A stretch of DNA of 51,846 nt, from NCBI GenBank assembly GCA_018268675.1, contig JAFDWB010000024.1, forward strand, positions 1 through 51,846. The letters run 5' to 3'. Origin of the DNA: Actinomycetota bacterium. GTDB taxonomy: Bacteria > Actinomycetota > Thermoleophilia > Solirubrobacterales > 70-9. Below are positions 2,276 to 44,653 of the stretch, one piece after another (position 1 is the first letter of the stretch; each line of letters starts with the position of its first letter). A program made the position numbers and the translations under genes. The notes beneath the pieces were generated by a model. The model made no database searches, was not told the origin of the DNA, and saw nothing but the letters and a program-made list of their open reading frames with translations.

Positions 2276-3678
<1,403 letters not shown>

Positions 3679-5883: not shown

Positions 5884-6259
5884 CTGGCGCCCCGAGAGGG
5901 CAAGGGACGACGGCCGGTGGGTGGGCAGCGGAAGAAGGGCCGGGGCGCGCGGAGGAAGGGTCGCGGGGGAGCCACACGAGCGCACCCTCCGTCCAGCTGT
6001 TCCTTATGCCCGTATATCGACGATAAGGAACAGCTGGACGGGGTCAGGTCGGGGGGAGCGAGGTCCGTCACTGGTCCTCCCGCCTTCCACAGACTCCCCG
6101 GTCCTCGATCCCGGGCCCTCCCGGGCGCTCCTCTCGTAAGGGACGATCACGGAAGTCCGACTCCCCCCGTCCCTGTGCCCGCTCTCACACGCACCATCAC
6201 GTCCCAGGACGCACCTCGGACGGCCGCCGACGCCCGGGTCGCGCCGCCCGTCCCTACAG
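5884..6259. repeat. Convergent intergenic repeat, copy A
   Basis: Non-coding stretch between the GNAT gene (+) and ligD-pol (-). It contains a series of blocks shared in the same order with the gap at 28923-29591: tggcgcccc at 5886, cggaggaagggtcgcg at 5950, ccctccgtccagctgttcc at 5986, aggtccgtcac at 6061, cctcgatcccggg at 6103, and acctcggacggccgc at 6213. The shared blocks run almost to the stop codon of the minus-strand gene on both sides. It contains one long hairpin (5990-6040) and short inverted repeats at 6110-6125 and 6200-6211. No gene seen. Confidence 0.65.
5990..6040. repeat. Class III palindrome, 18-bp arms
   Basis: Arms 5990-6007 and 6023-6040 are perfect complements (cgtccagctgttccttat). 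Spacer 6008-6022. The left arm plus flank is identical over 26 nt with 29209-29234 in copy B, where the right arm has decayed. Confidence 0.9.
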
Positions 6260-11295: not shown

Positions 11296-12240
11296 CTACA
11301 CGGAGCCGCTCCGTTGGAGTTCTTGGCGGATCACCGCGAAGACGGCGTCCGGTTCGTTTTCGGCTTCCCGCCAGGTGACCCGCAGGAGCCCGTAGCCGGC
11401 GGCGAGGAGTTCGCGGGCGCGCCTGTGGTCGCGCTCGAAGGCCACCTCGATGCCGTGGTGGCGGCGGCTGTCGGCTTCGACCACGAAGCGCTCGTTCGGC
11501 CAGAGGAGGTCGACCTCGAGGACGCGATCTGGGGTGCGGACGCGGGCGTTGAACTGCGGCGTCGGCAGCTCCGCCGCGGCGACCAGAGGCAGGAGCCTGG
11601 CCTCGAAGAGGCTCCGGAACGTCGCGTACCTCGCCGTCTCGGCGACCGGTCGCCACTCGTCGAGGACGCGCCGCAGGCACGGCGTCCCGCGCCGCCTCGG
11701 CCCTGCGGTGAGGATCGCGTCGATTGCTGCCAGGTCGAGCACCCGTTCCGTCGCCGCCATCTCGATCGTCTCCCGCAGCCCCTTCTCCCCGTACGTCCCC
11801 GCAAGGTCCACAACCGTCCGCGCCACCGAGGTGCAGGCGATCCCGTGGATGGGCCGCACTTCAGTGGGCGCGGGATAGGGCACGTTGTGGACGCGGATTC
11901 CCTCCAGCTTTCGCCCGGCCTGACCCGTGCAGATGACATCCACGGTCACCGGGTTCTTCTCCCGCAGCCGAAGAAGCCACGCGGCGCTTCGATGGGAGAT
12001 CACGGCTCCGGGTCCGCAGGCGAGGACCGGTGCGCGCAGGCAAGCGCGGGGCCCAAGCCCCGGGTGTCCGAGGGCGAAAACGGTGCGCATGACAGGGTGG
12101 AGGCGCCCGGTCGCCACCCAACGCGAGACGACATCGTCACCCAGTCCGGCCGCCCGAAGTTGCGCCGTCGTCACCAGCCCTTCCTGGGCCACGGCGATCG
12201 GGGCGAGGAGGCGGCTTGCCGTGTTCGAAACTTGGGTCAT
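11296..12240 (-). CDS. AbiEi-type winged-helix / DUF559 nuclease-like protein, copy 1
   Basis: 314 residues from ATG 12240. Residues 18-58 (EGLVTTAQLRAAGL ... LHPVMRTVFALGHP) match the winged-helix domain of type IV AbiEi antitoxins; 75-150 form the middle domain (ACGPGAVISHRSAAWLL, SVARTVVDLAG); 240-310 is the DUF559 domain, a Vsr/restriction-endonuclease-like fold with EVDLLWPNERFVVEADSRRHH, ERDHRRARELLAAGY and LLRVTW. Candidate acidic residues are D244, E255 and D257. No AbiEii toxin gene is adjacent. The ATG lies in the loop of a palindrome (12218-12260); a longer GTG start at 12273 would translate the palindrome too, but its SD directly abuts the codon. The function is not established. 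Confidence 0.85.
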   Translation of the reverse strand: MTQVSNTASRLLAPIAVAQEGLVTTAQLRAAGLGDDVVSRWVATGRLHPVMRTVFALGHPGLGPRACLRAPVLACGPGAVISHRSAAWLLRLREKNPVTVDVICTGQAGRKLEGIRVHNVPYPAPTEVRPIHGIACTSVARTVVDLAGTYGEKGLRETIEMAATERVLDLAAIDAILTAGPRRRGTPCLRRVLDEWRPVAETARYATFRSLFEARLLPLVAAAELPTPQFNARVRTPDRVLEVDLLWPNERFVVEADSRRHHGIEVAFERDHRRARELLAAGYGLLRVTWREAENEPDAVFAVIRQELQRSGSV

Positions 12241-12260
12241 CGGCAAGTAAGGAACACGGC
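12218..12260. repeat. Class V palindrome enclosing the start codon of DUF559 copy 1
   Basis: Arms 12218-12234 and 12244-12260 pair at 14 of 17 positions (gccgtgttc...acttg with caagtaaggaacacggc). The 9-nt loop, read on the minus strand, is ccgATGacc and holds the start codon. A related 43-nt hairpin with the same loop length is at 44245-44287 (30 of 43 identical; caagtaaggaacac exact). Confidence 0.85.
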
Positions 12261-12746: not shown

Positions 12747-13841
12747 ATGACGGTCACCTACGCAGAGAAGCTCGCGCGGATGCCGGGGTACAAGGCGGGG
12801 GTGCCGACCGGGCAGGCGCCGGAGGCGATCGCTGCCGGGGGGATCGCGCAGCTCGCCTCCAACGAGTCGCCGCTGCCGCCCCACCCGAAGGTGGTCGAGG
12901 CGATCGGCCGCGCGGCGGGGTCGATGAACCGATACCCGGACCCCGACGCGACCTTGCTGCGCCGCCGGCTCGCCGATCGCTACGACACGCAACCCGGGCG
13001 GATCGCGGTCGGCAACGGCTCCTGCGACCTGCTCCTGGCGGCCGCGGCCGCCCTCTGCGAGCCGGGCGACGAGATCCTCTACGCCTGGCCGAGCTTCTCG
13101 ATGTACCCGTACCTGCCGGCGCTGACCGGGGCGCGGGAGGTCCGCGTGCCGCTCGGCGAGGGCGACGCGCTCGACCTCGAGGCGATGGCGGCGGAGGCGA
13201 CCGCGGCGACGCAGCTGCTGATCGTCTGCAACCCGAACAACCCGACCGCGACCCACCACCCGGCGGCGGCGATCGCCACGTTCCTGGAGGCGGTTCCCGC
13301 GCACGTGACGGTGATCCTCGACGAGGCCTACGTCGAGTTCCAGACCGACGATGACCCCGACGCCTCGCTCGACCTGCTGAAGGACTTCCCGAATCTGGTC
13401 GTGCTGCGGACGTTCAGCAAGTGCTACGGGCTCGCCGGGCTGCGGGTCGGCTACGCGATCGGGTCCTCGAACTTCCGCGCCGCGGTCGACGCGGTGCGCC
13501 AGCCGTTCAGCGTCAACGCGCTCGCGCAGGCGGCGGGCGCGGAGGCGATCCTCCACCAAGACGACGTGCTGGCGCGGGTCGAGGCGGCGGTGGCGGAGAG
13601 GATCCGGGTCCAGGAGGGGCTGCGCGACCTGGGCCTCTGGGTGTCGGAGTCGCAGGCCAACTTCTCCTGGGTGGAGCTCGGCGACCGCGACGAAGCCGCG
13701 GTGATCGCCGGGCTCGCCGCCGCCGACATCGCGGTGCGGGCGGGGGCGCCGCTCGGCGACCCCGGGCACTTCCGGGTCAGCTACGGCACCGAGGAGGAGG
13801 ACGGCCGGTTCCTGGCGGCGCTCGCGCCGCTGCTCGGCTGA
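12747..13841 (+). CDS. hisC: HisC-type PLP aminotransferase (histidinol-phosphate or aromatic aminotransferase)
   Basis: Fold type I aminotransferase, 364 residues. Seen: LASNESPLPPHPKVVEA, VGNGSCDLLLAAAAAL, CNPNNPTATHHP, LDEAYVEFQ and the PLP-lysine block RTFSKCYGLAGLRVGYAIG at about residue 225. By family it makes histidinol phosphate in histidine synthesis. Its place between aroH and aroF, with tyrA and aroA next and no his genes near, makes an aromatic aminotransferase role (phenylpyruvate or hydroxyphenylpyruvate) equally likely; the sequence cannot decide this by eye. Confidence 0.88.
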   Translation: MTVTYAEKLARMPGYKAGVPTGQAPEAIAAGGIAQLASNESPLPPHPKVVEAIGRAAGSMNRYPDPDATLLRRRLADRYDTQPGRIAVGNGSCDLLLAAAAALCEPGDEILYAWPSFSMYPYLPALTGAREVRVPLGEGDALDLEAMAAEATAATQLLIVCNPNNPTATHHPAAAIATFLEAVPAHVTVILDEAYVEFQTDDDPDASLDLLKDFPNLVVLRTFSKCYGLAGLRVGYAIGSSNFRAAVDAVRQPFSVNALAQAAGAEAILHQDDVLARVEAAVAERIRVQEGLRDLGLWVSESQANFSWVELGDRDEAAVIAGLAAADIAVRAGAPLGDPGHFRVSYGTEEEDGRFLAALAPLLG

Positions 13842-21236: not shown

Positions 21237-21278
21237 CTGCATGAATTTAGGCCCCTATGGGGGCCAAGATTCATGCAG
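21237..21278. repeat. Class VI palindrome enclosing the start codon of DUF559 copy 2
   Basis: Outer arms ctgcatgaat / attcatgcag (21237-21246, 21269-21278) are perfect; inner arms ggcccc / ggggcc (21250-21255, 21260-21265) close a 4-nt loop, tatg. The gene's ATG is 21257-21259, in that loop and the first base of the inner arm. A purine-rich stretch at 21216-21227, resembling a ribosome site, lies outside the palindrome, 29 nt before the ATG. Confidence 0.85.
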
Positions 21279-28917: not shown

Positions 28918-28949
28918 GGGCGGCTGGCGCCCGAAGGTGAAAGGGACGC

Positions 28950-28999
28950 GGCCGTCTCGGTCACGACCCTGGCAGGCTGTGGCCGTGGCCGAGACGGCC
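28950..28999 (+). repeat. Class I hairpin (conserved loop), first copy
   Basis: Arms 28950-28964 and 28985-28999 pair over 15 positions (one G-T). The loop contains ggcaggctgtgg (28971-28982), identical to the loop of 51604-51659 and, on the other strand, of 29474-29533. The arms are unrelated to those of the other two. Confidence 0.85.
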
Positions 29000-29051
29000 G
29001 GGTCCGTGGGAGAGGAAGGGCCCGCACGGTGCACCAGGTGCGCCCACCCGA

Positions 29052-29096
29052 TGAGTTCGCAGAAACCCGCGCGATGCGCGGCAAACTGCGAACTCA
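29052..29096. repeat. Class IV palindrome, first full copy
   Basis: Outer arms tgagttcgcag / ctgcgaactca (29052-29062, 29086-29096); inner stem ccgcgc/gcgcgg (29067-29072, 29076-29081). The outer arms and AAACCCGCG core are the same as at 44303-44353. Confidence 0.88.
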
Positions 29097-29213
29097 CCTG
29101 GGGCGGGACGCCGGGTGCGGAGGAAGGGTCGCGGGGGAGTCACGGGACTCGCACGGGGGCGCCACGGGTCCGTCACCGAAGTGGGACTTCGCCGCCGTCA
29201 GGGGGGCGCCCTC

Positions 29214-29263
29214 CGTCCAGCTGTTCCTTATGCCGACCAGTCCGGCAAAAAGAACAGCTGACG
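29214..29263. repeat. Class III palindrome, decayed copy
   Basis: The left arm cgtccagctgttc (29214-29226) pairs with gaacagctgacg (29252-29263) with one bulged C. An inner stem, gccg/cggc (29232-29235, 29243-29246), has replaced the A copy's apex. Confidence 0.75.
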
Positions 29264-29322: not shown

Positions 29323-29380
29323 GGGACACGCTGCAAGGATTTGGGTCGCCAGAGCGACACAAATGCTTGCAGCGTGTCCC
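29323..29380. repeat. Near-perfect 27-pair palindrome with CAGA apex
   Basis: The outer 15-bp arms gggacacgctgcaag (29323-29337) and 29366-29380 are perfect. The stem continues through atttg/caaat and gtcgc/gcgac, interrupted by only two single mismatches, to a four-base apex at 29350-29353. Copy A has no hairpin at the equivalent place (about 6100). Confidence 0.88.
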
Positions 29381-29473: not shown

Positions 29474-29533
29474 CGTCCCGGGCGCCTCATGGGGGTCACA
29501 GCCTGCCAGGACCCCCATGAGGCGCCCGGGACG
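29474..29533 (-). repeat. Class I hairpin (conserved loop), second copy, opposite orientation
   Basis: Perfect 23-bp arms (29474-29496, 29511-29533; starts cgtcccgggcgcc). The loop 29497-29510, read on the minus strand, is cctggcaggctgtg. Copy A has only the short palindrome cgtcc-ca-ggacg (6200-6211) here. Confidence 0.9.
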
Positions 29534-44145: not shown

Positions 44146-44150
44146 CTCCC

Positions 44151-44181
44151 GACGCTTGTCCTCGTATGGAAGACAAGCGTC
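44151..44181 (+). terminator. 10-bp-arm hairpin after tsaE
   Basis: Perfect arms gacgcttgtc / gacaagcgtc (44151-44160, 44172-44181), 11-nt loop, 5 nt after the tsaE stop. Position suggests a terminator; no T tract. Confidence 0.6.
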
Positions 44182-44199
44182 GATGCGCCTGCCGGCTGC

Positions 44200-44266
44200 C
44201 GCCCGGCGTCTCGGCCTGCGCCGCGATCGGGGAGCTTCGGCCTTCCGGTGTTCCCTACTTGCACAT
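44200..44266 (-). pseudogene. Possible remnant of a DUF559 gene 5' end
   Basis: Read on the minus strand, the class V hairpin gives VPYL..VQVGNT, against VPYL..TQVSNT across the start of DUF559 copy 1, with a GTG in the loop. Beyond the hairpin the 10-mer gcgatcgggg (plus strand 44223-44232) lies 13 nt from the hairpin; in copy 1 it lies 14 nt away (12194-12203). No winged-helix or nuclease sequence follows. Confidence 0.35.
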
Positions 44267-44286
44267 ACGCCAAGTAAGGAACACCG
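44246..44286. repeat. Class V palindrome, solitary copy
   Basis: Arms cggtgttcc-tacttg and caagtaaggaacaccg (44246-44261, 44271-44286) pair with one mismatch; 9-nt loop. Closest relative is the palindrome around the start codon of DUF559 copy 1. Confidence 0.85.
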
Positions 44287-44302
44287 CAGGGGCTGACCCC
44301 TC

Positions 44303-44353
44303 CGGTGAGTTCGCAGAAACCCGCGGATAGCGCGGGGAACTGCGAACTCACCG
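44303..44353. repeat. Class IV palindrome, second full copy
   Basis: Perfect 14-bp outer arms cggtgagttcgcag / ctgcgaactcaccg (44303-44316, 44340-44353); inner perfect stem cccgcg/cgcggg (44320-44325, 44331-44336) with loop GATAG. Same element as 29052-29096. Confidence 0.9.
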
Positions 44354-44653
44354 TGCCCGGGCCGCACCCGCGGTCGTCCTTTCCCACCCTCCAGCGACCG
44401 CGCCTTAGATCGACCGCGCTCCCTCCTGCGCGCCTCCCGACGGCTGTGGCGGCGACGCCCGGGCCGGTGCGCGCCGCCGGGGTGTCAGCCGGCCTCGGGC
44501 GCCGGCTCCCACGCCGGCGAATCCCGCCCCGCGTTCGGTCGTCCAGCTACCCTCAGAAGACCGCATCCGCAGCCCCTGGCAGGGGTTACGGGATCGATGC
44601 TGAAGGTTTCAGGGCACATTCGTGACAGGATCGAGACAGGAGGACTTTTGAGG

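Follow-up and report, generated by a model that had tools for sequence, protein, structure and literature searches.

In REP/RAYT systems, high-copy intergenic palindromes are accompanied by a mostly single-copy cognate gene beside a palindrome, several such pairs occur per genome, and gene and repeat co-evolve (PMC8266576, PMC3733652). At its own promoter, AbiEi binds two inverted repeats of 23 bp with a spacing of 3 bp (PMC7319586). I-Bth0305I occupies a target of nearly 60 bp as a dimer (PMC3943268), and the homing nuclease I-TevI acts as a repressor of its own gene by way of an operator that resembles its homing site (PMC2988022). By analogy, the data on these three proteins can serve as precedents for the model of DUF559 proteins discussed below, not as tests of it. 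Pfam assigns no function to DUF559 proteins, and palindromic repeats also spread in genomes that lack RAYT transposases. In the literature searched, outside which most subscription journals lay, no paper connects palindromic repeats with DUF559 proteins or with AbiEi-DUF559 proteins.

DUF559 proteins compared with the described systems

The window, the whole analysed stretch of 51,846 nucleotides, encodes two DUF559 proteins (Table 1). The Pfam domains of DUF559 paralogs are AbiEi_4 and DUF559/REase_MTES_1575; AbiEi_4 is reported in 9 of 10 paralogs and stays below the reporting level in copy 1. In the predicted structural model of copy 1 (mean pLDDT 86), residues 3-197 match AbiEi (6y8q; Z 14.2, rmsd 4.1, 182 aligned) and residues 210-313 match the catalytic domain of I-Bth0305I (3r3p; Z 13.0, rmsd 2.3, 96 aligned), and the model matches Vsr (1cw0) with Z 10.6. 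Residues E213, D244, E255, D257 and H262 are invariant in 13 paralogs. From this model, copy 1 is predicted to combine a DNA-binding repressor of the AbiEi type with a nuclease domain of the EDxHD/Vsr type.

Over residues 1-200 the predicted fold is that of AbiEi antitoxins and of Rv2827c of the type IV toxin-antitoxin systems, which likewise have inverted repeats near the start, and the AbiEi repeats are close in size to the DUF559 palindromes. However, copy 1 differs from these antitoxins in having no adjacent toxin, an extra nuclease domain and dispersed copies of its site. Its neighbours are a pseudouridine synthase and a chorismate mutase, and no DUF1814/AbiEii toxin gene is among the immediate neighbours of copy 1 or copy 2. 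The second domain shares its predicted catalytic fold and its conserved acidic and histidine residues with I-Bth0305I and Vsr. In contrast to EDxHD homing endonucleases, no intron or intein is seen around the DUF559 gene, and it is the short palindrome that spreads, the nuclease gene itself being absent from the dispersed sites. I-TevI shows that a nuclease can repress the gene encoding it by means of a target-like operator, but it belongs to the GIY-YIG family and to a phage intron. We know of no dispersed palindrome family for I-TevI.

The likeness to REP/REPtron systems lies in the repeat, which is short, intergenic and present in many copies, stands at its cognate gene and co-varies with it across species, DUF559 taking the place of RAYT. 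The cognate enzyme is unrelated, being a HuH tyrosine transposase in REPtrons and a predicted AbiEi-EDxHD/Vsr-type nuclease fusion here. Y1_Tnp (PF01797) has no match in the 96.65% complete draft genome that contains the window (G000), although 6 of 14 control genomes are positive. Furthermore, the DUF559 palindrome spans the start codon, and the foot of the aligned consensus of the dispersed copies carries neither a GTAG nor a CGTC tag.

Table 1 Positions of the palindromes, hairpins and DUF559 genes in the window
Feature	Position	Strand	Remark
Core of the 44-kb palindrome: GTGTTCCCTACTTG CACATACGC CAAGTAAGGAACAC	44248..44284	+	
Whole family A element	44224..44304	+	Conserved flanks GGGGAGC..CGGCCTTCCG and CGCAGGGGC.GACCCC; R1 91.5 bits
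Block missing from relatives, tsaE to next gene	44146..44545		~370-400 bp; approximate, ends not base-exact
Second hairpin, module B: GGTGAGTTCGCAG..CTGCGAACTCACC	44303..44353	+	
Additional module B hairpin	29047..29101		
DUF559 copy 1, 314 aa	11296..12240	-	Predicted AbiEi-like regulator and EDxHD/Vsr-type nuclease domain
Start-codon palindrome of copy 1	12218..12260	-	Central ATG 12,240-12,238
DUF559 copy 2, 304 aa	21257..22171	+	AbiEi_4 and DUF559
Start-codon palindrome of copy 2	21237..21278	+	Arms differ; ATG central
Dispersed palindrome, F1 family	5994..6036		Cognate to DUF559 gene at C82:80 kb; site absent in G006, G008
Second F1-family palindrome	29220..29258		
Weak member of family cognate to DUF559 gene C29:6.5 kb (L039)	29329..29374		71.7% identity, just below the 72% cut

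The 44.25-kb palindrome and its dispersed family

When compared on one strand, the palindromes at 44,245-44,287 and 12,218-12,260 agree at 30 of 43 positions, as an earlier sequence-only reading had noticed. The exact 14-nt right arm CAAGTAAGGAACAC is common to both and occurs within the window only at 12,244 and 44,271. The 10-mer GCGATCGGGG is found at 12,194 and 44,223, and at the latter place it is part of the conserved left flank of the family described below. Among all other places in the window, 44,245 matches the 12,218 palindrome most closely (31/43, reverse strand), whereas 300 palindromes obtained by permuting the same arms match at no more than 28 positions. The minus-strand reading VPYL...QVxNT does occur at both places, but only as a consequence of the palindrome match.

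The 44.25-kb hairpin had been described as solitary, which holds inside the window but not genome-wide. The proposed genome search for the 43-nt pattern, run as GTGTTC-N3-ACTTG-N9-CAAGT-N3-GAACAC with up to 3 mismatches, returns 36 places, whereas the reversed control returns 0. This family, family A, has the pattern GTGTTCCTTACTTG-N9-CAAGTAAGGAACAC and about 36 copies in the 4.2-Mb genome. Thirty-three copies can be aligned over ~80 nt, and their flanks CCGGCCTTCCG and CGCAGGGGCCG are conserved beyond the palindrome. With the model R1, the 44-kb copy scores as canonical (Table 1), and the palindrome over the start of DUF559 copy 1 reaches 27.6 bits and is an outlier. In a scan of the genome collection, the exact pattern matched only G007 (JAFDWG01). 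Matches of R1 in G006, G008 and G011 were rejected as family A, those inspected belonging to the F1 family instead.

Family A copies lie between genes at 36 of the 37 sites with called genes. These intergenic sites comprise 16 convergent, 16 tandem and 4 divergent gaps, against 58 convergent and 101 divergent regions in the intergenic background (Fisher p = 4e-4; length-weighted p = 0.002). Compensatory changes are almost lacking among the 33 copies, which are simply alike, and a structural RNA within family A was rejected on this ground.

The sequence-only reading had offered two origins for the 44.25-kb palindrome, the deletion of a DUF559 gene that left its 5' tag behind and the copying of the tag itself. 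A deleted gene would account for the arms and the 10-mer shared with copy 1. However, no DUF559 gene lies near any other family A copy, the sole exception being the start of copy 1, so that some 35 similar copies stand without a gene. A six-frame search with an HMM of 13 DUF559 proteins, which covered all flanks up to 3 kb around the 35 other sites, detects neither a gene nor a remnant, and the 44.25-kb copy is an ordinary family member and not a gene remnant. The synteny comparison after tsaE likewise reveals no occupied DUF559 site. Flanks at tsaE in G003, G006, G007 and G008 are 84-87% identical to the window, and 24-47 bp separate the tsaE block there from the matching block that follows, versus ~420 bp in the window. 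Sequence extracted from ten relatives has a short, gene-free gap at this place. Since the insert after tsaE is lacking in all ten, a gene deletion at 44.25 kb is not supported, and we give the loss of a former DUF559 gene next to no probability. Copying of the tag is supported, since the dispersed copies share their arms with a DUF559 start palindrome of the same genome.

The block at 44 kb in the window also holds the repeat modules B, D and E, and therefore the 44-kb palindrome arrived in, or sits in, a composite. As part of a composite of several modules, this copy may have been carried along with a larger element moved by a transposase. Neither target-site duplications nor exact insertion boundaries were detected for the copies. 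In an operon common to G000 and G007, the palindrome occupies different gaps. The module B hairpin is dispersed in G000, G003, G008 and G011, and its outer arms probably resemble the start palindrome of an L037-type DUF559 gene, with a match at threshold.

Several further repeats were observed. Family A copies often lie within E-C-A-B-D composites with TIR-like ends GCCGGCTGCCGCC (L044-L078, around 3001-3037), an arrangement that recalls modular BOX elements. Copies in G007 (L089-L101) often lie in a cloverleaf-like unit, with apparent 23-bp inverted repeats GATTCGAACGGTCAGGAATCTGC around two hairpins. Two dispersed hairpin types in the window, F4 and F5 (28944-29005 and 29474-29533), have the loop CACAGCC(T/A)GCC in common and different stems; no cognate gene was identified for either family.

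Start-codon palindromes of DUF559 genes and their dispersed siblings

A strong start palindrome is present at 30 of 41 DUF559 genes of the genus versus 5 of 686 other genes (p = 7e-39, one uniform measure), and its arms are private to each paralog. It is rare in the DUF559 genes sampled from other actinobacterial groups (2/31). In G076, a genome of the same phylum but a different class, near-identical, near-perfect palindromes of 49 bp stand on both sides of one DUF559 gene (L314:12139-12188 and 13171-13219), with no further copy in 320 kb.

At the copy-1 locus, eight species can be aligned without gaps; the 43-bp palindrome is kept in all, the arms differ, and the ATG is central in seven. The gene is missing from the orthologous place in three of the relatives examined. 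The arms co-vary, with 93% of cells paired and both members altered in 10 of 13 pairs, a level reached by 0 of 500 shuffles. Arm co-variation alone would be expected from a hairpin as well as from a dimer-binding site. However, among 104 scored cells no pair is kept through a one-sided G-U change, and for this reason a symmetric DNA site is favoured over an RNA stem. Hairpins acting at the RNA level, where they would control translation of DUF559 genes from the start codon and mark transcript ends elsewhere, would agree with the stability of the predicted hairpins, with the gene-3' bias and with the start codon in the loop. Yet terminators need not share their arms with the start of one gene, the lack of one-sided G-U pairs is unusual for RNA stems, and Rfam gives no match to a known RNA family in the window. 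We regard such an RNA-level role as very unlikely.

In a sample of 0.84 Mb (20% of the genome), dispersed siblings, defined by an ungapped full-length identity of at least 72% and controlled with permuted palindromes, were found for the palindromes of 9 of 13 DUF559 genes, whereas the permuted palindromes gave 0. Plain BLAST E-values with +1/-1 scoring were abandoned, as control intragenic palindromes averaged 13 matches in this GC-rich genome. Matches in the sample number 17 for L031, 13 for L035 (copy 1), 11 for L037, 8 for L039, 5 for L038, 4 for L043, 2 for L042, and 1 each for L036 and L041; L033 matches itself only, and the counts of L031, L033 and L035 include the palindrome of the gene itself. 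In this sample the L032, L033, L034 and L040 palindromes have no siblings; none are found for the copy 2 palindrome. The pattern is thus reproduced at other DUF559 start palindromes, and the proposed tie between dispersed palindromes and the DUF559 family extends to most paralogs, more broadly than first claimed. Many F1-family copies in G006 and G008 lie 150-860 bp from contig starts (L200-L205, L214), as if near longer repeats that break the assembly.

The other large families likewise occupy convergent or tandem gaps, and L043-family palindromes, unlike those of other families, lie 15-40 bp from gene starts (G000:C87:116634-116677 and 121444-121488; C82:273082-273126). These bear on an ordinary regulon, in which DUF559 proteins would be transcription regulators, the dispersed palindromes their operators, and the nuclease fold incidental. 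The AbiEi-type N-terminal part and the arm co-variation expected for dimer sites fit this reading, and so does the L043 family, which may be a small true regulon and looks more like ordinary operators. However, family A avoids divergent promoters, as do the other large families, its conserved flanks extend past the palindrome, its sites are lineage-specific and lie within insert-like blocks, and the catalytic residues are invariant. A general regulon is therefore unlikely.

The arms were also compared within single genomes. In G007, the arm pair of its own copy 1 occurs in 13 copies, one of which is at the gene itself, and 12 of the 13 carry the GAAA/TTTC half that is coding sequence in the gene. 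G003 has its own copy-1 arms at five places, four of them without a DUF559 gene nearby, and this arm pattern is missing from most other genomes of the genus. The presence of own copy-1 arms in the dispersed copies indicates, in G007 and G003, a direction from gene start to dispersed site. In G011, the palindrome of the L031-type gene and a dispersed copy are identical at 32 of 32 arm positions compared. The arm matrix of G006 and G008 is not diagonal, owing to the likeness of their L031-type families. In G000, one arm pair is GAAA/TAAG in the gene copy versus CTTA/TAAG in the dispersed copies; the latter have two CTTA/TAAG half-sites and therefore do not exactly reproduce the present gene palindrome. 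Comparison of the arms suggests that the copy-1 start palindrome is the cognate or the source of family A.

These comparisons also bear on a REP- or MITE-like element moved by an unrelated transposase, whose palindromes DUF559 genes would merely have captured as operators or start regions. The frequent location of copies within E-C-A-B-D composites with terminal inverted repeats, and the 23-bp inverted repeats that seem to frame the G007 copies, agree with it. Of the MITE features, TIR-like ends are present in the composites and no target-site duplication is established. Against such capture, the gene-start palindrome is kept in the orthologs of eight species while the dispersed copies vary between genomes, most DUF559 paralogs own a palindrome with different arms, and no Y1 transposase is found in the genome. 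We judge this explanation improbable.

Proposed recognition and spread of the palindromes

Taken as a whole, the explanation that we hold to be probable is that the copy-1 protein has a recognition palindrome of which the 44.25-kb palindrome is one non-coding copy, dispersed in a REP-like, nuclease-driven manner. The copy-1 protein would recognise the start palindrome as its own binding site, and a dimer bound over the start codon would repress its own gene. The family would spread, separately in each lineage and like REP elements, from the gene start to intergenic, mostly gene-3' positions. The likeliest driver may be an attack of the nuclease domain on DNA that is bound or folded into a hairpin, followed by a repair that copies the site; this is the least certain step. 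The explanation is supported by the dispersed family, the genus-wide start palindromes, the arm co-variation, the same-genome arms, the insert-free sites in relatives and the two-part predicted fold. The rarity of the palindrome at DUF559 genes outside the genus, the four genes without siblings, the arm mismatch in G000, the closeness of the L043 family to gene starts, the composite setting of the 44-kb copy and the failure to detect a target-site duplication or an exact insertion boundary count against it.

More generally, and only tentatively, repressor-nuclease fusions of AbiEi and EDxHD type might multiply their start-codon operators, each paralog having a private palindrome family and specificity co-evolving with the arms. 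The scattered copies and the start palindromes in the genus suggest an unrecognised repeat-spreading or repeat-binding system. Sequence alone suffices to pair the gene family with its repeats, in several species and for several paralogs, and therefore binding, repression and copying are directly testable with defined protein-DNA pairs.
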